Shown piece after piece: positions 52,278 to 61,260 of a stretch of 64,000 nt of DNA (the stretch's first letter is position 1; each line of letters starts with the position of its first letter). This stretch comes from Terriglobia bacterium (GTDB lineage: Bacteria > Acidobacteriota > Terriglobia > Bryobacterales > Bryobacteraceae): the NCBI GenBank assembly GCA_021325175.1, contig JAJPHS010000125.1:1-64000 (forward strand), read 5' to 3'. The position numbers and the translations under genes are program-made. The notes beneath the pieces were generated by a model. That model made no database searches. It saw only the letters and a program-made list of their open reading frames with translations, and was not told where the DNA came from.

Positions 52278-52973
52278 TCAAGGACTATGCGGGTGGCACA
52301 GCGAGGCCAGGAGGTTGAGGTCGAGGCGGCCTGTATAGATCGCCATCCCAACGACGGAGTGAATTGAAAGCGCGGAGAGCTCGCGAATTTCTTCAAGAGT
52401 GGTGATGCCCCCGGCGGCGGACAGCTCGAGGGGTGTAGCCTGGCGCAAGGAGCGGAACCAGTCCAGGTTTGTGCCTTGCAGCAGACCCTCCTTATCGACG
52501 AAAGTGCAAAGAAATCCGGAACAGAACGGCGCGGTGCGATTGATCAGTTCTTCGGCGCGGAAGCGGGTCGGCTCGCGCCAACCCTGGACGACCACGCGGC
52601 CGTCGCGCGAGTCGAGCGCGACGATCAGACGGTCGCGACCGGCGGCGGCGGAGATTTCCGCCAGCCGCGAAGGGTCGAGCGCGGCCGTGCCGACAATCAC
52701 CTTATGCGCGCCGCATTCCACCAGTTGGCGCGCGCGCTCCGGGGTGCGAATGCCGCCGCCGATCCGGGTGAGAGCGCGCGAGGCGAGCATCTGAACAACT
52801 TCCTGGTTGGAGCCGGCGCCCGAGGCGGCATCGAGATCGACGATCTGAATCTGGGGAAACGCGCTGAAGCGCTTGAGCATGATCAGGGGAGCTTCGCCTT
52901 CGAGGGCTTTATCCCGGCCCTGTATAAGCTGCACCACTTTGCCACCTTGCAGATCGATGCAGGGGATGATCAT
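52278..52973 (-). CDS. hisA: HisA, ProFAR isomerase
   Basis: 231 residues from ATG at 52973 (MIIPCIDLQGGKVVQLIQG); the frame is open further upstream but that is the hisF tail. TIM barrel with the first catalytic Asp7 and second Asp in LIVALDSRDGRVVVQGW. Catalyses the Amadori rearrangement of ProFAR to PRFAR. Last gene of the his operon; it begins 4 bp after hisF. Confidence 0.96.
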   Translation of the reverse strand: MIIPCIDLQGGKVVQLIQGRDKALEGEAPLIMLKRFSAFPQIQIVDLDAASGAGSNQEVVQMLASRALTRIGGGIRTPERARQLVECGAHKVIVGTAALDPSRLAEISAAAGRDRLIVALDSRDGRVVVQGWREPTRFRAEELINRTAPFCSGFLCTFVDKEGLLQGTNLDWFRSLRQATPLELSAAGGITTLEEIRELSALSIHSVVGMAIYTGRLDLNLLASLCHPHSP

Positions 52974-52977
52974 GATT

Positions 52978-53751
52978 TCAGCTCGTGACAGGGGCAGGGC
53001 GCACGGGAATACCACGCGCCGCCAGATTGTTTTTTAAATCCGCGATGGCCCAGGTACCGAAGTGGAAGATGGAAGCGGCCAGCGCGGCCGCGGCCTCGCC
53101 TTGTTCAAAGATGCGCGCGAAGTCCTCGGGATGGCCCGCGCCTCCGGATGCGATGACCGGGACCGAAGTGGCGCGGGTCACGGCGCGGGTAAGCTCGCAG
53201 TCAAAACCGGCGCGGACGCCGTCCGTATCCATGGAGGTGAGCAGGATTTCACCGGCGCCGAGGGAGACGCCCCGGCAGGCCCATTCGACGGCGTCGAGGC
53301 CCTCCTCGTCGCGGCCGCCCCGGGTGAACACGTTCCAGCCCCCTCGGGCATTGCGGCGGGCGTCGATCGCCAGGACGACGGCTTGCGCTCCGAACTCCTG
53401 GTTCAATTCGGTGATGAGCTCCGGTCGGCGGACAGCGGCGGTGTTGATGCTGACCTTGTCCGCTCCGCAGGAAAGCACACGGCGGGCATCGCCAACCGAG
53501 CGGATTCCACCGCCGGCGGTGAGCGGGATAAAGACCTGGCGGGCCGTGCGCTCGATCAGGCCGGCGAGAATTTCGCGGGCGTCGCTGGAGGCGGTGATGT
53601 CGAGGAAGACGAGCTCGTCGGCGCCCTGTTTCTCATAACGGCGCGCCAGTTCGACCGGGTCGCCGGCGTCGCGGAGGCCGGTGAAGCGGACGCCTTTCAC
53701 CACCCGGCCCGCAGTGACGTCCAGGCAAGCGATAATGCGGCGCGTTAACAC
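52978..53751 (-). CDS. hisF: HisF, imidazole glycerol-phosphate synthase cyclase subunit
   Basis: 257 residues from GTG at 53751 ([20 protein letters not shown]), overlapping hisH by 7 bases. TIM barrel with catalytic Asp11 and the second Asp in VVLAIDARR. Takes ammonia from HisH and converts PRFAR to imidazole glycerol phosphate plus AICAR. The C-terminal block [20 protein letters not shown] is typical. Confidence 0.97.
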
Positions 53752-54347
53752 GAAGCCTCCAGAAAATTCCGCAGGATGCGAAGGCCGAGCGGGCCGGATT
53801 TTTCGGGATGAAACTGCACGCCGAACAGGCTGCCGCGCTCGACAGCGGCGGTGTAGCGGACAGTGTAGTCGCAAACCGCGGCGGTTGCCTCGCCAAGGAG
53901 CGGCACGTAAAAGCTATGCGCGAAGTAAAAATACGGCTGCGTGCCCGTCCGGCGAAACAGAACCGTGTCTTCGCAGGGCGCCACCGGGCTCCAGCCCATG
54001 TGAGGAACGCGCGCGCCGGGACCGAACTTCCGGACGATTCCCGGAAGCAAGGCGAGTCCGGGAAGGCCGGGCGCCTCCTCGCTGCCTTCAAACAGGGCCT
54101 GTAAGCCCAGGCAGATGCCGAGGAACGGCGCGCCGGCTTCGATGCGCCGCTTCAGTGGCGTGCGGAGCCCCAGCGAGTCGAGGGAGCGGATCAGCTGGCC
54201 GAAGTGGCCGACGCCCGGCAGAATGATACGGGCGGCGCCGTAAAGCGCCTCGGGCGAGCGCACGCGTTCGTGCCGCGCTCCCAGCGCGTCGAGGGCATTC
54301 TCGACGCTGCGCAAGTTGCCGGCTCCGTAGTCAAGGATGGCGATCAT
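53745..54347 (-). CDS. hisH: HisH, imidazole glycerol-phosphate synthase glutaminase subunit
   Basis: 200 residues from ATG at 54347 ([19 protein letters not shown]). Class I glutamine amidotransferase with nucleophile Cys79 (FLGICLGLQ) and His/Glu in [13 protein letters not shown]. Supplies ammonia to HisF. The start overlaps the hisB stop by four bases. Confidence 0.97.
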
Positions 54348-54934
54348 CCCAGGAGGTCCTTGGTGGACGGAAGCTGGCCGCGCAAGCGCGGATCCCGGGC
54401 GCAGGCAAAGCGCAGCGCGCGGGCAAAACATTTGAACACAGCCTCCAATTTATGATGATTCGAGCGGCCATAGAGAACCCGGAGGTGAAGGTTCGCGCCA
54501 GCGTGATGGACGAAAGCGGCGAAGAAGTCTTCGACGAGCTCGCTTTGCAGGTCGCCGACGAAGCGAACCCGCACCAAATCTTTATAGACGAGGGCGGCCC
54601 GGCCGGCGAGATCAACGGCGGCGACGGCCAGGGTCTCATCCATGGGCATAACAAAGTAGCCGGCGCGATTGATGCCTTTACGGTCGCCGAGCGCGGTTGA
54701 CACGAGCTGGCCGAGAACAATGCCGGTGTCTTCGACGGTGTGATGCTGATCGACGTCCAGATCGCCCGCGGCGCGGAGATGCAGGTCGAAAGCTCCGTGC
54801 CGGGCGAACAATTCGAGCATGTGGTCGAGAAAGCGGATGCCGGTGGAGATATCGTAGGCGCCGCGGCCGTCGAGACGGATGGTTCCGCGGATCCTGGTTT
54901 CGCGAGTGTTTCGTTCGATCGACGCTTTTCTCAC
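54344..54934 (-). CDS. hisB: HisB, imidazoleglycerol-phosphate dehydratase (monofunctional)
   Basis: 196 residues from GTG at 54934, the normal length of a stand-alone dehydratase without the N-terminal HAD phosphatase of the E. coli type. Metal motifs [17 protein letters not shown] and [17 protein letters not shown] are present. Converts imidazole glycerol phosphate to imidazole acetol phosphate. The start overlaps the stop of a short HAD-like remnant by four bases. Confidence 0.96.
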
Positions 54935-55041
54935 AACACGGTCTCCCGGCGATGGAGGCCGGCGGCGCTGGCGTCGAACAGCACGCCGTCCGGGACAAAA
55001 ACAAACATTTCGTATTTGGTTGGGACGCTCACGCCTTCCAT
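54931..55041 (-). pseudogene. Probable stump of a HAD-superfamily phosphatase gene between hisC and hisB
   Basis: An ORF of 36 codons starts with an ATG inside the end of hisC and stops at TGA overlapping the hisB GTG (GTGA). From its internal Met12 it reads [17 protein letters not shown], close to HAD motif I (VFDxDGVLxD) but with the nucleophilic Asp replaced by Val. HAD phosphatases occur between or fused to hisC and hisB in some organisms. I read this as a truncated, inactive former histidinol-phosphatase gene. An unrelated short coupling peptide is the alternative. Confidence 0.5.
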
Positions 55042-56102
55042 ATCCTTTCGAGCTCCTGGAGAAAGCGGCGGGCCTGAGCGCGAGTGCCGGTGGTGACGCG
55101 TACGCAGCCGGGGAGTTCGTAGCTGCGGTCGCGGACGAGGATCCCGCGGCCGCGAAGTTTGTGGCAAATCTCGGCGGCGCGCCGGCCGGCCCGGAACAGG
55201 ACGAAGTTTGCCTGGCTTTTGTAATAGGTGATGCCGAGGCGCTCGAAGCCGGCGTAGAGCAACTCGCGGGCGGCGAGGGATTCGGCAACATAGCGCCGGA
55301 CGAAAGAAGTATCCTTCACCGCGGCCGCGGCGGCCGTGGCGGCGAGCGTATTTACACTGTAAGGCGATTGCGCTTTGCGCAAAAATTCGACATTTTCGCG
55401 ACGGCTGAACAAACAACCGGCGCGCATGGCGGCGAGCCCGTAGACTTTGGAGAACGTTCGGCAGACGAATAGGTTGGGGTAGGTCTCAAGAAGCGGAAGG
55501 GCCGTCACGCCGCAAAACTCGAAATACGCTTCGTCGACCAGAACGGCGGCGCGGCCGGCGCGGGTAAGGATTTTTTCGAGGCCGGGGCGGGAGGTCCCGG
55601 TGCCGGTGGGGTTATTCGGGTTGGCAATCATAACGCCGCGAGTGGCCTCCGTGATGCGTTCGAGCAGCTCTTCCAGAGGAAAGGCCAGATCGGGAGCACG
55701 GTAGCGGACTTCTTGAACGCGGGCGCCGGCAAGTTCGGCATAGAAGCGGTACATGGCATAAGACGGCGAGAGAGTAATAACTTGGGCTCCGTCATCGATA
55801 TAGGTGTTGATGAAAACCTGGATGGCCTCATCGGTGCCATTGGTCAGCAATAAGTTCGCGGGAGCTACTTTGAAGTGGCGCGCGAGAGCCTGGCGCAGGC
55901 TGCCGTATTCGGGATAGACAGGAAGCAGGCTTGGATCGAGCGCCTGGCGGAGGCAATGGAGGACCTGGGCCGACGTTCCGATGGTGTTTTCGTTGAAATC
56001 GAGCCGGAGTTTGCCCAAGCGTCCGGCGGTGGGCGGCGAGTAGGGGCGCATGCGGCGGACCGCCTGGCGGGGTTCAGGAGGAACAAGACGCTTAGAGGCC
56101 AA
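55029..56102 (-). CDS. hisC: HisC, histidinol-phosphate aminotransferase
   Basis: 357 residues from TTG at 56102 (GAGG six bases before it); ATG at 56051 would give 340. Class I/II aminotransferase fold, with [20 protein letters not shown] at the start, a PLP-binding region [20 protein letters not shown] containing the Schiff-base Lys, and NPNNPTGT. Converts imidazole acetol phosphate to histidinol phosphate. Its start overlaps the hisD end by 11 bases. Confidence 0.95.
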
Positions 56103-57354
56103 GGCGCACCTCGACGGAGCGGGCGTGGGCTTCAAGGCCCTCGGCGCGTGCGAGCGTGGTGATAGACGGGGCAAGCGAGGCGAGCGCTCCCGCGGTCAGT
56201 TCCTGGATGGAGATGACTTTAACGAAGTCCGCGGCGGAGAGACCGCCGCGAAGGCGAGCGGCGCCGGCGGTAGGCAGGACATGATTGGGTCCGGAGGCGT
56301 AGTCGCCCGCGGCTTCCGGACTGAAAGGACCGAGAAAGACGCTCCCCGCATTCTGAATACCGGGGAGCAACTCCGGGTGATACAGACTGAGATGCTCAGG
56401 GGCGAGACGGTTGGAGATATCGACGGCTTCTTCGAGCGAGTGTGTAAGGAGGCAGGCCCCGTGGGTGCAAATCGAGGCGCGGGCGACGGCCGCGGTGGGG
56501 AGGGTTTCGATTTGGCGCTCAATCTCGCGGGCGGTGGCCTCGGCGAGCGCGCGGGAGGGAGTCAGCAAGATGGACGAGGCCTCGATGTCGTGCTCAGCCT
56601 GGGCGAGCAGATCGGCGGCGAGGTGCCGGGGGTCGGCCTCGGCGGCGATGATGACGATTTCGGTGGGGCCGGCGGCGAAGTCGATTCCGGTTTCGCCGGC
56701 GACTAACTTTTTGGCCGCGGCGACATAAATATTGCCGGGGCCGGCGATGCGGTCGACTTTGGGTACGGTGGCGGTGCCGAAGGCGAGGGCGCCGATCGCC
56801 TGAGCGCCGCCGATGCGGAACACACGCGTGACCCCGAGCAGATGCGCGGCGCCCAGGATCTCAACGCTGGGCCTGGGGCAAGCGACACAGATCACCGGGA
56901 CACCGGCCACCTGCGCGGGGATGACGGTCATCAACAGTGTGGAAGGGAGCGGGTACCGTCCCGCGGGAATGTAGGCGCCGATGGAGGCGAGCGGGCGGAC
57001 GATCTGGCCGAGCCGCCGCCCGGCGGAATATTCGCGCATCCAGGCGCGCGGCAGTTGTTCGGCAGCGTATTCCCGGATATTTTGGGAGGCTACAAGGATC
57101 GCGTCGCGGAAGGCGGGCGCCAATTGCGAGGCCGCCTGCTCAAGCTCGGCGGAGGAAACCAGCAAGGAGGGTGAGTCGAATCCGTCGAATCGCCGGCAGT
57201 ATTCGCAAACGGCCTCGTCGCCGCGGCGGCGGATATCTTCCAGCATCGGCGCGACGATCTGTTCAATCTTGGCCATACGCAGAGCTTTCCGCTCGAGGAG
57301 CGATTCGGCGGCGCACGCGTCGAGGATAGGGAGCAGAGTAGCGAAGGTGTCCAT
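56092..57354 (-). CDS. hisD: HisD, histidinol dehydrogenase
   Basis: 420 residues. The NAD/zinc domain includes RIAGPGNIYVAAAKKLVAGE and the zinc ligands around AQAEHDIEASS and NRLAPEHLSLY; GDYASGPNHVLPTAGAARLR is the C-terminal signature. Oxidises L-histidinol to L-histidine in two steps. It starts 8 bp after hisG. Confidence 0.97.
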   Translation of the reverse strand: MDTFATLLPILDACAAESLLERKALRMAKIEQIVAPMLEDIRRRGDEAVCEYCRRFDGFDSPSLLVSSAELEQAASQLAPAFRDAILVASQNIREYAAEQLPRAWMREYSAGRRLGQIVRPLASIGAYIPAGRYPLPSTLLMTVIPAQVAGVPVICVACPRPSVEILGAAHLLGVTRVFRIGGAQAIGALAFGTATVPKVDRIAGPGNIYVAAAKKLVAGETGIDFAAGPTEIVIIAAEADPRHLAADLLAQAEHDIEASSILLTPSRALAEATAREIERQIETLPTAAVARASICTHGACLLTHSLEEAVDISNRLAPEHLSLYHPELLPGIQNAGSVFLGPFSPEAAGDYASGPNHVLPTAGAARLRGGLSAADFVKVISIQELTAGALASLAPSITTLARAEGLEAHARSVEVRLGL

Positions 57355-57362
57355 GGCAGCGC

Positions 57363-58232
57363 TTACATCACGATCTTGTTCAGCGGATATTCGACGATGC
57401 CCTGTGCCCCGGCATCCTTCAGGCGGGGAAGAATGCTGCGGACCGTGAATTCGTCGAGGACGGTGTTGACGGCCAGCCAGTCTTCATCGCTGAGATGAGA
57501 AATGGTCGGTTTTTTGAGCGCCGGCAGGACGCCGAGCACGGCGGTCAAGTCTTCTTTACGGACGTTTAGCATAAGACCGACTTTGCCCAGGGCGTTGATG
57601 GCGCCTTCCAGCAGCATGCGCATGTCTTCGAGTTTGCGCCGCTTCCAGGCGTCCTGCCAGGAGCCGCGGTTGGCGATCAACTGGGTGTTGGATTCGAGGA
57701 CCGTTTCGAGGATGCGCAGTTTATTGGCGCGCAGAGAAGAGCCGGTCTCGGTGACTTCGACGATGGCGTCGGCAAGGACCGGCGGCTTGACTTCGGTGGC
57801 TCCCCAACTGAACTCGACCTTGGCGCGGACGCCCCGCTGGGCGAGATAGCGCCGGGTGGCACCGACCAGTTCGGTGGCGATGACTTTGCCTTCGAGATCC
57901 TTGACGGAGTGAAACAGAGAGGACTCGGGCACGGCCAGCACCCAGCGGACCTTGGCGAAGCTTTGTTTGGCGTAGATGAGGTCGGCGACCGTGGCCACCT
58001 CCGCTTCGTTTTCCTCCACCCAATCGCGTCCGGTGAGGCCGGCGTCGAGGACCCCGTCTTCGACATAGCGGGGCATTTCCTGAGCGCGGATCAGCATGCA
58101 ATCGATTTCGGGGTCGTCGATCGAAGGAAAGTAGGATCGCGTGCTGGTACTAATGTTGAAGCCGGCGCGGCGGAAAAGATCGATGGTTGAGTGTTCGAGG
58201 CTGCCTTTGGGAATTCCGAGCTTGAGTTTCAT
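57363..58232 (-). CDS. hisG: HisG, ATP phosphoribosyltransferase (long form)
   Basis: 289 residues from ATG at 58232 ([20 protein letters not shown]). Catalytic region with [14 protein letters not shown] and [19 protein letters not shown]; then the C-terminal HisG_C regulatory domain (from about 215, [20 protein letters not shown]), which binds histidine for feedback inhibition. First committed step of the pathway. Being long-form, no HisZ is needed. The start overlaps hisI by four bases. Confidence 0.97.
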
Positions 58233-58624
58233 TTCACCACTCCGTATACGGCGGCGGGGTCGTAGGTTTGCGGCTCGCGGATCTGCCATCCGCCGCCGTC
58301 GAAGCTGCGGAAAAAGCAACTTTCATAGCCCTCGTGACAGACGCCGGGGCCGGCGGCGTCAACATGAAGAAGGAGGCAGTCCCCGTCGCAGTCGGTTTCG
58401 ATGGCTTTTACCGTCAGCCGGTGGCCGGAACTTTCGCCTTTCACCCAGATTTTGTTGCGGGAGCGGCTATAGAAGGTGGCGTAGCCGGTGGAAAGCGTGC
58501 GGCGAAAGGCTTCCTCATTCATGAAGCCGACCATGAGGACGCGGCGCGAGGCCGAGTCCTGAACGACGGCAGGCAGGAGCCCGCCGAGTTTGGTGAAGTC
58601 GAGTTTTAGCGATTGAATATCCAT
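58229..58624 (-). CDS. hisI: HisI, phosphoribosyl-AMP cyclohydrolase
   Basis: 131 residues. [11 protein letters not shown] carries the Mg/Zn-binding Asp/Cys pattern and [10 protein letters not shown] the second Cys pair. Hydrolyses PR-AMP. First structural gene of the his operon, directly behind the attenuator. It lacks a HisE (PR-ATP pyrophosphatase) domain, and no hisE gene is found in the window. Confidence 0.96.
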
Positions 58625-58642
58625 GATCTGTATGCCCCAATT

Positions 58643-58672
58643 AAAAAAGCCCGCTGGAATGAACCAGCGGGC
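58643..58672 (-). terminator. His operon attenuator (intrinsic terminator in the leader)
   Basis: On the minus strand GCCCGCTGG (58672-58664), a 6-nt loop, CCAGCGGGC (58657-58649), then six U's (58648-58643): a perfect 9-bp terminator just before hisI (ATG at 58624). The leader segment CCGGCGGGC (58719-58711) can pair with the first arm over all nine positions with one G-U, forming the antiterminator. Confidence 0.9.
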
Positions 58673-58700
58673 CGGATGAGATCACTTAAAAGGTGGTCGT

Positions 58701-58772
58701 CTAGTCGAAAGCCCGCCGGCGGCCGCGATGGCGGCGATGATGGTGGGCGTGATGGAGGACGGAGACGAGCAC
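58701..58772 (-). CDS. hisL: HisL, histidine-rich leader peptide
   Basis: 23-residue ORF from GTG at 58772: MLVSVLHHAHHHRRHRGRRR then AFD. Six His codons fall within nine positions (CAT CAC GCC CAC CAT CAT CGC CGC CAT). Short of charged His-tRNA the ribosome stalls here, leaving the final codons (CGC CGG CGG GCT) free to form the antiterminator. When it completes the peptide it covers them and the terminator forms. Confidence 0.85.
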   Translation of the reverse strand: MLVSVLHHAHHHRRHRGRRRAFD

Positions 58773-58780
58773 GAACTAAA

Positions 58781-58789
58781 AGTGTAGCA
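58781..58789 (-). promoter_or_regulatory. Extended -10 promoter of the his operon (TGCTACACT)
   Basis: TG-C-TACACT on the minus strand ends eight bases before the GTG of the leader peptide, so transcription should begin at or within two bases of the leader start codon. No good -35, consistent with an extended -10. Confidence 0.6.
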
Positions 58790-58905
58790 AATCGGAAAAG
58801 CCTACGGGCGCATGGGAATCGGACGCGGCTATGCATACCCCCGCGCCACGGCGCGCGGCTCTCATATTCATGAGCCGCTTGCACGGGGGCGGGATGAAAG
58901 ACCGC

Positions 58906-61260
58906 TTAGGCGGCCTTCGCCGGCAGCACGATCAGGCCTGGCAACATCTCCACCAGGACGTCTTCGACGCGCTCGGCGAAGATGAACGTCATCTCGTTGC
59001 GCACCTCCTCGGGAAGATCGCGCAGATCCTTCTGATTGCCGCGCGGCAGGATCACTCGCTTGATTCCGGCCCGGCGCGCCGCCAGCACCTTCTCTTTCAC
59101 GCCCCCGATCGGTAGAACCAGACCGGTCAGCGTGACCTCTCCGGTCATCGCCGTGTCGCTGCGAGCCGCGACGCCCGAGTAGATCGAAGCGAGCGCAGTG
59201 GTCATGGTCACCCCCGCCGACGGACCATCCTTGGGAATCGCCCCCGCGGGGACGTGAATGTGCAGACCGGTGTTCAGGAACTTTGTCGGATCGATTCCCA
59301 ACTGAACGGCGTGCGCCCACACGTAGCTGCGCGCCGTCTTGGCCGATTCCTGCATCACGTCGCCCAGTTGGCCGGTGATGATCAGATCCTTGCCATTCGG
59401 GAGCAGCGTCGCCTCGATATAGAGAACGTCGCCGCCGGTTTCCGTCCAGGCAAGTCCAGTCGCCACGCCGGGCGGCAAATCCTTGCGAGCCTGCTCGGGC
59501 AATACCGGTTCGGGTCCCAGAATTTCGACCACCTCATCCGGGGTCACTGTCACGTGCGCGGGTTCGCCGCCCTCAACGAACTTCAGCGCCGTGCGGCGGA
59601 CGACGCGCCCGATGGTTTGCTCCAGCCGCCGCACGCCCGCTTCCCGCGTATAGCTGGTGATGATCTTTCGCAGCGAATCGTCGGGCAATTCGAACTGCTC
59701 CGGCTTGATCCCCGCCTGTGCAAGCTGACGCGGCAGCAGATAGCGGCGCGCGATCTGCATTTTTTCCTCCTCGCTGTAGCCGGAAAGCCGCAGAACCTCC
59801 ATGCGATCGAGCAGCGGCGCCGGGATCGTGTCGAGCGTGTTCGCCGTGGTGATGAACAGCACCTTCGACAAATCGAAAGGCAAATCGAGATAGTTATCGC
59901 GGAACGTCTTGTTCTGCTCCGGATCGAGCACTTCGAGCAGCGCCGACGCCGGATCCCCGCGGAAATCGCGCCCCAGCTTATCCACCTCGTCGAGCATCAG
60001 CACCGGATTATTCACGCCGGCGCGCCGCATCGCCTGAATCAGCCGGCCGGGCAGCGCCCCGATGTACGTTCTCCGGTGGCCTCGCAGTTCGGCTTCGTCA
60101 TGCATGCCCCCCAGGCTCATCCGCTCGAATTTGCGATTGAGCGCCCGCGCGATCGACTGGCCGAGCGACGTTTTGCCCACGCCCGGCGCGCCGACAAAGC
60201 ACAGAATCGGAGCCTTTGCTTCCGGATTCAGCTTGAGCACCGCCAGATGTTCAAGGATGCGCTCCTTTACTTTCTTTATGCCGAAGTGATCCTCGTCGAG
60301 CACCTGCCGCGCGCGCGGGATGTCGAGATTATCGTCGCTGCGTTTCCGCCACGGCAGCTCGATCACGTAATCAAGCCAGGTGCGGATGACGTTATGCTCC
60401 GGCTGGACCGAAGGTATTTTTTCCAGCCGAGCCAGTTCGCGCTCGGCTTCCTTGCGGACCTCATCCGGCAGGTCCGCTTTCGCAAGCTTCTCTTTCAGCT
60501 CCTCGATTTCGCCCTGATCCGGATTTTTTTCGCCGAGCTCCTGTTCGATGGCGCGCTTCTGCTGGCGCAGAATGTATTCACGCTGCTCGCGCGACATCTC
60601 CCCGCGCGCTTCCTCCGCGATTTTGTTGCGCAACTCCAGCACGTCCACTTCATGCGCCAGCCAGCCATGGACCAGGCGCAGAGCTTCCACCCGCGTCGGC
60701 GCCTCCAGCAACGACTGTTCGCGCGAGGTTTCCAGGTTCATCAGCGAGGCTAGCATGTAGGCAAGCTGAAGCGGATCGCCTTGCGAGGTGAACATGCGCG
60801 CCAGTTCTTGCGGCGTCTGATTTTGCGCCTGCACCAGCCCGATGAACTTCGTGCCCAGCTCAATGAGGGAAAGCGTCAGCGCCTCCGTTTCACGGCTGGA
60901 GTCATCGGGAGCGGGCAGCGGCCGAACCCGCGCCAAAAGCTTGCCGTCCTCCTCGATCTTGACAATGACGACGCGCTCCACCCCATACACCAGAATTTCA
61001 ATCTGGCCTTTGGCGCGTCCAAATTTGCGAATAATGCCGCGCGTGCCGATCGTGTACAGGTCGGATGCGCCCGGCGTCTCGACATTCGCGTCGCGCTGCG
61101 CAACCACGACGATTTCCTTTTCTTCCGTCGCCAGCGCCTGCTCCACCGCCGCGATAGAGCCCGGCCTGCCCACCGAAAGCGGCATCAGCAGCCCCGGATA
61201 CAAAACCGAATTCTTCAGCGGTAGCAGCGGCAGGGTAATGATTTGATCTTTTTCAGGCAT
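58906..61260 (-). CDS. lon: Lon ATP-dependent protease
   Basis: 784 residues from ATG at 61260 (MPEKDQIITLPLLPLKNSVL); the frame extends to an ATG at 61323 that overlaps the clpB stop by one base, giving 805. Lon N-domain, AAA+ domain with FVGAPGVGKTSLGQ, and the protease domain with PKDGPSAGVTM (Ser of the Ser-Lys dyad) and IGGVKEKVLAARRAG (Lys). Degrades misfolded and regulatory proteins. Coupled to clpB. Confidence 0.97.
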   Translation of the reverse strand: MPEKDQIITLPLLPLKNSVLYPGLLMPLSVGRPGSIAAVEQALATEEKEIVVVAQRDANVETPGASDLYTIGTRGIIRKFGRAKGQIEILVYGVERVVIVKIEEDGKLLARVRPLPAPDDSSRETEALTLSLIELGTKFIGLVQAQNQTPQELARMFTSQGDPLQLAYMLASLMNLETSREQSLLEAPTRVEALRLVHGWLAHEVDVLELRNKIAEEARGEMSREQREYILRQQKRAIEQELGEKNPDQGEIEELKEKLAKADLPDEVRKEAERELARLEKIPSVQPEHNVIRTWLDYVIELPWRKRSDDNLDIPRARQVLDEDHFGIKKVKERILEHLAVLKLNPEAKAPILCFVGAPGVGKTSLGQSIARALNRKFERMSLGGMHDEAELRGHRRTYIGALPGRLIQAMRRAGVNNPVLMLDEVDKLGRDFRGDPASALLEVLDPEQNKTFRDNYLDLPFDLSKVLFITTANTLDTIPAPLLDRMEVLRLSGYSEEEKMQIARRYLLPRQLAQAGIKPEQFELPDDSLRKIITSYTREAGVRRLEQTIGRVVRRTALKFVEGGEPAHVTVTPDEVVEILGPEPVLPEQARKDLPPGVATGLAWTETGGDVLYIEATLLPNGKDLIITGQLGDVMQESAKTARSYVWAHAVQLGIDPTKFLNTGLHIHVPAGAIPKDGPSAGVTMTTALASIYSGVAARSDTAMTGEVTLTGLVLPIGGVKEKVLAARRAGIKRVILPRGNQKDLRDLPEEVRNEMTFIFAERVEDVLVEMLPGLIVLPAKAA

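Follow-up and report, generated by a model that had tools for sequence, protein, structure and literature searches.

In the 64,000-nucleotide stretch of Bryobacteraceae DNA analyzed here (the window; contig JAJPHS010000125.1), the region ahead of the histidine biosynthesis operon hisIGDCBH(FA) is, with high probability, a ribosome-mediated transcription attenuator on which ribosomes load at a leaderless 5′ end. The evidence is all comparative, and histidine-dependent read-through is a prediction from it. As a concrete candidate switch with wide conservation across the phylum, it lends itself to easy testing. Its natural leaderless mRNAs would also have a measurable translation output, from which the speed of ribosome loading on leaderless 5′ ends behind RNA polymerase could be learned.

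Organization of the his leader and operon

All features of the locus are on the minus strand; lon precedes them there, with its end at 58906. An extended −10 promoter element, TGC-TACACT (58781–58789; TACACT at 58786–58781 with TGC just before it), lies 8 nt ahead of the leader start codon, a position conserved in relatives. The leader peptide open reading frame (hisL, 58701–58772) starts with GTG at 58772, stops with TAG at 58703–58701, encodes 23 amino acids (MLVSVLHHAHHHRRHRGRRRAFD) and is likewise conserved. Its translation places six His codons within codons 7–15 (58728–58754), in agreement with an earlier note on this DNA that had reported six His codons in nine positions. Also as that note described, a perfect intrinsic terminator (58643–58672) separates hisL from hisI; its 9-bp stem has arms at 58672–58664 and 58657–58649, a loop of 6 nt and six T at 58648–58643.

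Pairing and folding identify two further segments. Segment 2, the antiterminator arm (58710–58719), is within the last codons of hisL, and segment 3, the shared arm (58664–58673), can pair with either segment 2 or the 3′ arm of the terminator. The pairing between the leader and the first terminator arm noted earlier is present, although it extends over 10 positions (58719–58710 with 58673–58664), two of them G-U, rather than nine.

Profile searches give the gene order hisI, hisG, hisD, hisC, hisB, hisH. The first gene of the operon, hisI (phosphoribosyl-AMP cyclohydrolase, 58229–58624), matches profile NF000768 with 148.2 bits against a cut-off of 126. It is followed by hisG (57363–58319, TIGR00070; the profile starts at residue 32, so the true start is further in), hisD (56092–57354, TIGR00069), hisC (55029–56174, TIGR01141), hisB (54344–55291, NF002111; profile from residue 120) and hisH (53745–54431, TIGR01855; profile from residue 30). 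A hisF-like (52978–53874) and a hisA-like (52278–53015) open reading frame come next and were named by eye from their translations.

In the proposed mechanism, RNA polymerase would start at the leader start codon or immediately beside it, and a ribosome would load on the leaderless 5′ end. When charged His-tRNA is scarce, the ribosome would stall on His codons 7–12 and leave segment 2 free; segment 2 is then predicted by folding to capture segment 3, which would block the terminator and allow transcription of the operon. When histidine is plentiful, the ribosome would reach the TAG and cover segment 2, segment 3 would pair with segment 4 (the 3′ arm of the terminator) and transcription would end at the U tract before hisI.

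Folding and conservation of the predicted antiterminator switch

From its single sequence, the attenuator of the window is suggestive and borderline, and it is its conservation in relatives that lifts it above chance. Among base-shuffled leader ends, 3.7% (P = 0.037) pair at least as strongly as the duplex between segments 2 and 3 (2:3 duplex; −20.9 kcal/mol), and among synonymously recoded ones 11% do (P = 0.11). Terminator-like sites are not enriched in 53000–59500 (5 vs. 5.5 in shuffles), and a two-hexamer promoter scan of the same interval finds 0 matches vs. 1.2 in shuffles and does not pick up the extended −10 element.

In simulations of a translating ribosome, the RNA behind the ribosome edge was removed and the RNA ended just after segment 3, with an assumed footprint of 15 nt ahead of the codon. 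With the ribosome midway through the His codons (median of six His per leader), the probability of the antiterminator is at least 0.5 in 111 of 119 distinct leaders (112 of 120 with one repeat); with the ribosome at the stop codon, this level is reached in none of the 119. Eight leaders fall below the 0.5 rule, and four of them are short (L038, L119, L123 and L124). The mean antiterminator probability is 0.77 vs. 0.53 for shuffled leader ends (Wilcoxon P = 6e-19, relatedness ignored), and the real leader exceeds its shuffled control in 107 of the 119. For the window, the simulated probability holds at 1.0 up to leader nt 51 and has dropped to 0 by the stop codon; a stall at His codons 7–12 frees segment 2 and a stall at codon 15 frees part of it. 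In silico, antiterminator and terminator rule each other out, a stall releases the antiterminator and a ribosome at the stop codon masks it; the modeled switch agrees with the earlier proposal that stalled ribosomes expose the antiterminator and a ribosome at the TAG covers it. By rule, a terminator is located between the leader and the first gene in 120 of 121 leaders; L245 lacks one.

Without a ribosome, the antiterminator probability is below 0.3 in 37 of 119 leaders, a set that includes leaders lacking a good 2:3 pairing. The low probability would suit a protector pairing in these models. Such a pairing is not general: it is in these 37 leaders that, with no ribosome, the first terminator arm stays largely unpaired with the leader, and the window is not one of them. 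A point against the model is that, in the window without a ribosome, the leader occupies segment 3 at a probability of 1.0 ahead of the synthesis of segment 4, although the minimum-energy fold of the whole leader contains the terminator.

In 65 of 84 leaders, the native 2:3 pairing is better than the median of swapped pairings, and in three sets of leaders it is significant by shuffling (P ≤ 0.05) in 21 of 47, 11 of 19 and 4 of 18, and by synonymous recoding in 13, 9 and 2, respectively. Across an alignment of leaders dominated by the window's own family (A2), positions of the 2:3 helix pair in 73.1% of cells vs. 34.5–43.1% when the helix is slid. Two-sided covariation of the helix in A2 is weak (2 pairs changed on both sides vs. 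2.5 expected; score reached by 43 of 500 shuffles) because the core GGCGGGC:GCCCGCC is nearly invariant in the family and segment 3 has two partners. Between families the core changes in step, as in L183 and L184, where GCCGGG occurs with CCCGGC, and in L041, where the leader end CGGCAG..TCGGC is matched by a terminator GCCGAGCCTGC. The earlier note held that its reading would fall if relatives conserved neither the His codons nor the two alternative pairings; His codons, the alternative pairing and a terminator recur across the phylum before his genes, although two-sided covariation by alignment column is weak.

Promoter position and the probable leaderless start

The spacing between the −10-like box (TAnnnT) and the start codon is narrowly distributed. 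Across a set of 85 leaders, it is 8 nt in 38 and 9 nt in 31, relative to a background at spacings of 14–60 nt that averages 0.47 and never exceeds 3. For 120 distinct leaders, the whole range is 5–11 nt, with 8–9 nt in 85. Leaders were selected for a box at 4–11 nt, so its presence is no control; that role falls to the spacing and to the background count. Shine–Dalgarno-like 4-mers number 3 among the 120 distinct leaders vs. 10.1 expected (for 121). Leaders generally have a −10 element a short distance before the start codon and lack a Shine–Dalgarno sequence. Exceptions are L181, with a box spacing of 13 nt (read by eye), and L246, with AAGGAG shortly ahead of its ATG; the lineage of L246 looks Shine–Dalgarno-led. 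On these patterns, hisL is very probably leaderless, with a transcript that would begin at the GTG or no more than a few nt from it. In three genomes of Acidobacteria, an average of 13.3% of genes are predicted to be leaderless (PMC3160421).

Promoter type varies with phylogeny. A TTGACA-like −35 element (at least 5 of 6 matches) is present in 52 of 54 leaders of other Terriglobia and 15 of 19 of other classes, and in 1.7% of shuffles. In the mainly Bryobacteraceae set, such an element is present in 4 of 47 leaders and a TGn extension precedes the −10 element in 36 of 47; the leader of the window has no −35 match. The leader start has apparently kept its place through a change of promoter type, which we consider the best argument that the position matters. 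The box position, the lack of Shine–Dalgarno sequences and the promoter elements of relatives strongly back the earlier suggestion of a leaderless message.

Distribution of his leaders across Acidobacteriota

Searches with HisI found a match in 57 of 61 genomes, 50 of which were taken. The 68 hisI upstream regions derive from 30 plus 20 loci of the HisI search and 18 loci of a scan of named genomes (at least 80 loci there). A His-rich open reading frame behind a TAnnnT box is present in 50 of the 68 regions (including two repeats); by the same rule, the other 18 lack the box or the reading frame. Twelve of the latter are from family f3, from which 14 regions were fetched, and the others are L010 and L013 (own family of the window), L012, L042 (repeat of L122), L045 (His reading frame present, box absent by rule) and L089 (just 66 nt of upstream sequence). 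A His-rich reading frame filter flagged 2 of 65 named loci (L046–L110), L049 and L105, both labeled Acidobacteria; the contrast is rough because hisI need not lead the operon in many of the others. Repeats (L003, L039, L044 and L265, which equals L049) were left out of leader counts.

Family f3 belongs to the same order as the window, and in 12 of its 14 regions the His leader is absent before hisI. Three of its loci (L028, L030 and L042) have a common TTGATATTCTGAGATTCTGG region before hisI. We read the state of f3 as a putative loss or replacement of the His leader. In L010, the 90 nt directly preceding hisI hold a promoter-like box and a terminator but no room for a leader reading frame, possibly a remnant.

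A covariance model of 149 positions was built from the 42 leaders of A2. In the window's own genome, the model recovers the site with an E value of 6.6e-24. Other matches in this genome, at 1.7e-4 or worse, were rejected as a second His attenuator; the one inspected among L161–L167 (L161) is a plain terminator. Within class Terriglobia, the model matches 246 of 299 genomes (207 of 240 good genomes) at E ≤ 0.01, a lax threshold at which some plain terminators are expected among the matches. Of the best 150 matches in the class (149 genomes, E ≤ 3.4e-9), 149 are full length. Across the phylum, 114 of 396 genomes are matched at E ≤ 0.001, including 71 outside of class Terriglobia, 35 of them full length (counted by eye). 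Partial matches were rejected as attenuators because they are often plain terminators, and conclusions are based on full-length matches and individually inspected loci.

Eighty matches outside of the family, picked nonrandomly from the better ones, were inspected; 60 belong to class Terriglobia and 20 to other classes. A His-rich reading frame is present in 79 (exception L250) and the next gene is a his gene in 79 (hisI in 74, hisG in 3 and hisD in 2; L249 is at a contig end). A −10-like box is located 6–11 nt ahead of the start in 74; by rule it is absent in L181, L250, L266, L271, L281 and L292. Judged from these loci and full-length matches, a predicted attenuator comprising a His leader, terminator and alternative pairing before his genes is widespread in phylum Acidobacteriota.

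Beyond the phylum, matches are few. In the class of a record labeled Ferrithrix (L043), which we take to be Acidimicrobiia, 4 of 100 genomes are matched, 2 at full length. In two genomes of this class (G681 and G870; loci L296/L043 and L312), a His leader is followed by hisI-hisG, and their HisG proteins are 76% and 75% identical to that of the window. These loci look like an operon transferred with its attenuator, or like misbinned contigs. In the phylum of L041, a metagenome-assembled genome labeled Armatimonadetes, 8 of 151 genomes are matched at E ≤ 1e-4 and none at full length; 7 of 12 loci fetched from this search were inspected (L300–L305 and L308) and have no match to HisI, HisG, HisD, HisC or HisB of the window. 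At L041 itself (2348–2498), a His leader, antiterminator and terminator of very different sequence precede hisI. This leader scored only 1.7e-4 in its own genome, so the model misses true cases.

Alternative explanations

The most plausible alternative, itself unlikely, keeps the attenuator and has hisL translated from a short 5′ untranslated region instead of a leaderless end. Variation in box spacing (5–11 nt over 120 leaders and 13 nt in L181) and the AAGGAG before the ATG of L246 fit such a start, but the concentration of spacings at 8–9 nt (85 of 120), the deficit of Shine–Dalgarno-like 4-mers (3 vs. 10.1) and promoter elements located upstream in the right register argue for the leaderless one. 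Far less credible is that the terminator merely ends transcription of lon and that the His-rich reading frame is accidental. The same-strand location of lon upstream would allow this, and CAC and CAT are presumably likely codons in C-rich DNA; an accident is hard to reconcile with the joint occurrence of a His reading frame, terminator and his gene in 79 of 80 inspected matches, or with a His leader and terminator also being located before a second hisD-like gene (L315).

Different outputs of the same leader can be considered as well. One is control of hisI translation by the leader; another is a role in trans, as a small RNA, for the leader RNA left by termination, comparable to rnTrpL of Sinorhizobium. 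A leaderless leader with a terminator would yield a discrete RNA, here of ∼130 nt, and trpL of S. meliloti exemplifies such an RNA (PMC7298713), yet the terminator, U tract and linkage to his genes are accounted for by attenuation in cis, and we consider either output very improbable. Ribosome-mediated attenuation from a leaderless leader is the explanation we favor.

Relation to known attenuators

The predicted element shares with the enterobacterial His_leader family (Rfam RF00514) a run of His codons in a short leader peptide, competition between antiterminator and terminator and a location before a his operon. It differs in that the leader is apparently leaderless, hisI is usually the first gene and the antiterminator arm is inside the last codons of the leader. 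The enterobacterial logic invoked in the earlier note holds up in folding and conservation, without extending to membership in that RNA family: at the gathering threshold of 49 bits, RF00514 does not match the window, and across 20 loci it yields one subthreshold match (L254, 29.1 bits). Rfam was therefore rejected as a source of a name for the element, having no match at threshold.

Leaderless attenuators are known for other amino acids. The ilvBNC attenuator of Corynebacterium glutamicum is also ribosome mediated and leaderless, but responds to branched-chain amino acids and is from an actinobacterium; its transcription begins a single nucleotide away from the start codon of the leader, with no ribosome-binding site (PMC11857589). 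In the alphaproteobacterium S. meliloti, the leaderless trpL/rnTrpL leader concerns tryptophan, and its attenuator RNA begins with ATG (PMC7298713). Several his transcripts of C. glutamicum are leaderless as well, but there it is the structural genes that are leaderless, with no His leader peptide, and a T-box is proposed for hisD (PMC3896937). Firmicutes have His-rich leader peptides with a terminator and antiterminator before his genes, distributed patchily in the Bacillus cereus group, Peptostreptococcaceae and Lutispora, and Erysipelotrichales (PMC9413887); the main text of this source does not contain "Acidobacteri".

Ribosome-mediated his attenuation is therefore a known kind of regulation, and for the putative leaderless form without an Rfam match we found no published description in the literature covered. 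That literature concerned his leaders of Acidobacteria, leaderless attenuators and genes, his attenuation across phyla, leader peptides of Solibacter and noncoding RNA, with partial coverage such that subscription journals could hold a description. Nothing was found on transcription attenuation in Acidobacteria.

Candidate leaderless leaders of other operons

Some weaker matches of the model are leads to further leaderless attenuators; gene names at these loci (hisD-like, MetY-like and asd-like) were read by eye from translations. We see an even chance that leaderless leader-peptide attenuation is a general and old system of amino acid control in Acidobacteriota, in which an ancestral hisI-linked His attenuator was kept through promoter turnover and the same promoter–leader–terminator plan is used ahead of metY, by leaderless Met/Cys leaders, and ahead of asd, by leaders that combine several amino acids (Thr, Ile, Met, Lys).

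Among the weak matches, L316 and L323 are ordinary hisI leaders, and L317, L320, L321 and L322 were rejected as leaders of this plan. By a strict rule, no leaderless leu, trp or phe leaders are found in leuA (16 of 17), trpE (15 of 17) and pheS (13 of 14) loci, a weak result since the first genes of these operons may differ. Eight of the candidate loci described in this section have no match in Rfam.

At L315 (G328:C76:25359–25518, minus), a second leaderless His leader and terminator precede a hisD-like gene, on a different contig than the hisI leader of the same genome. At L319 (G100:C30:19430–19605, minus), a leaderless Met/Cys-rich leader (MFDVAHNTTMAMCTIIMCMRRG...) and a terminator precede a MetY-like gene; a −35 element, a −10 element, 9 nt and an ATG occur in succession, and a strong pairing of −27 kcal/mol joins the leader end to the terminator arm. 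Two of 19 metY loci have such leaders (L319, the starting locus, and L325), both in genus g75. A wider occurrence of metY leaders was rejected, as the 19 loci, with the sequence of L326 incomplete, include none beyond this genus.

A Thr-rich leader precedes an asd-like gene at L318. Matches to asd were found in 44 genomes and 30 asd loci were inspected: 13 have a box, short reading frame and terminator, and in 8 of the 13, the starting locus included, RKR follows Thr, Ile or Ala. The leaders of L318/L343, L350, L351, L361, L362, L363, L366 and L371, from another class of Acidobacteriota, are rich in Thr, Lys, Ile or Met and have a recurring RKR / CGAAAGCGG stretch. These asd leaders could be multi-amino-acid attenuators or structured RNAs. 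In each, a box is located 7–10 nt upstream and a terminator is present before the asd-like gene.
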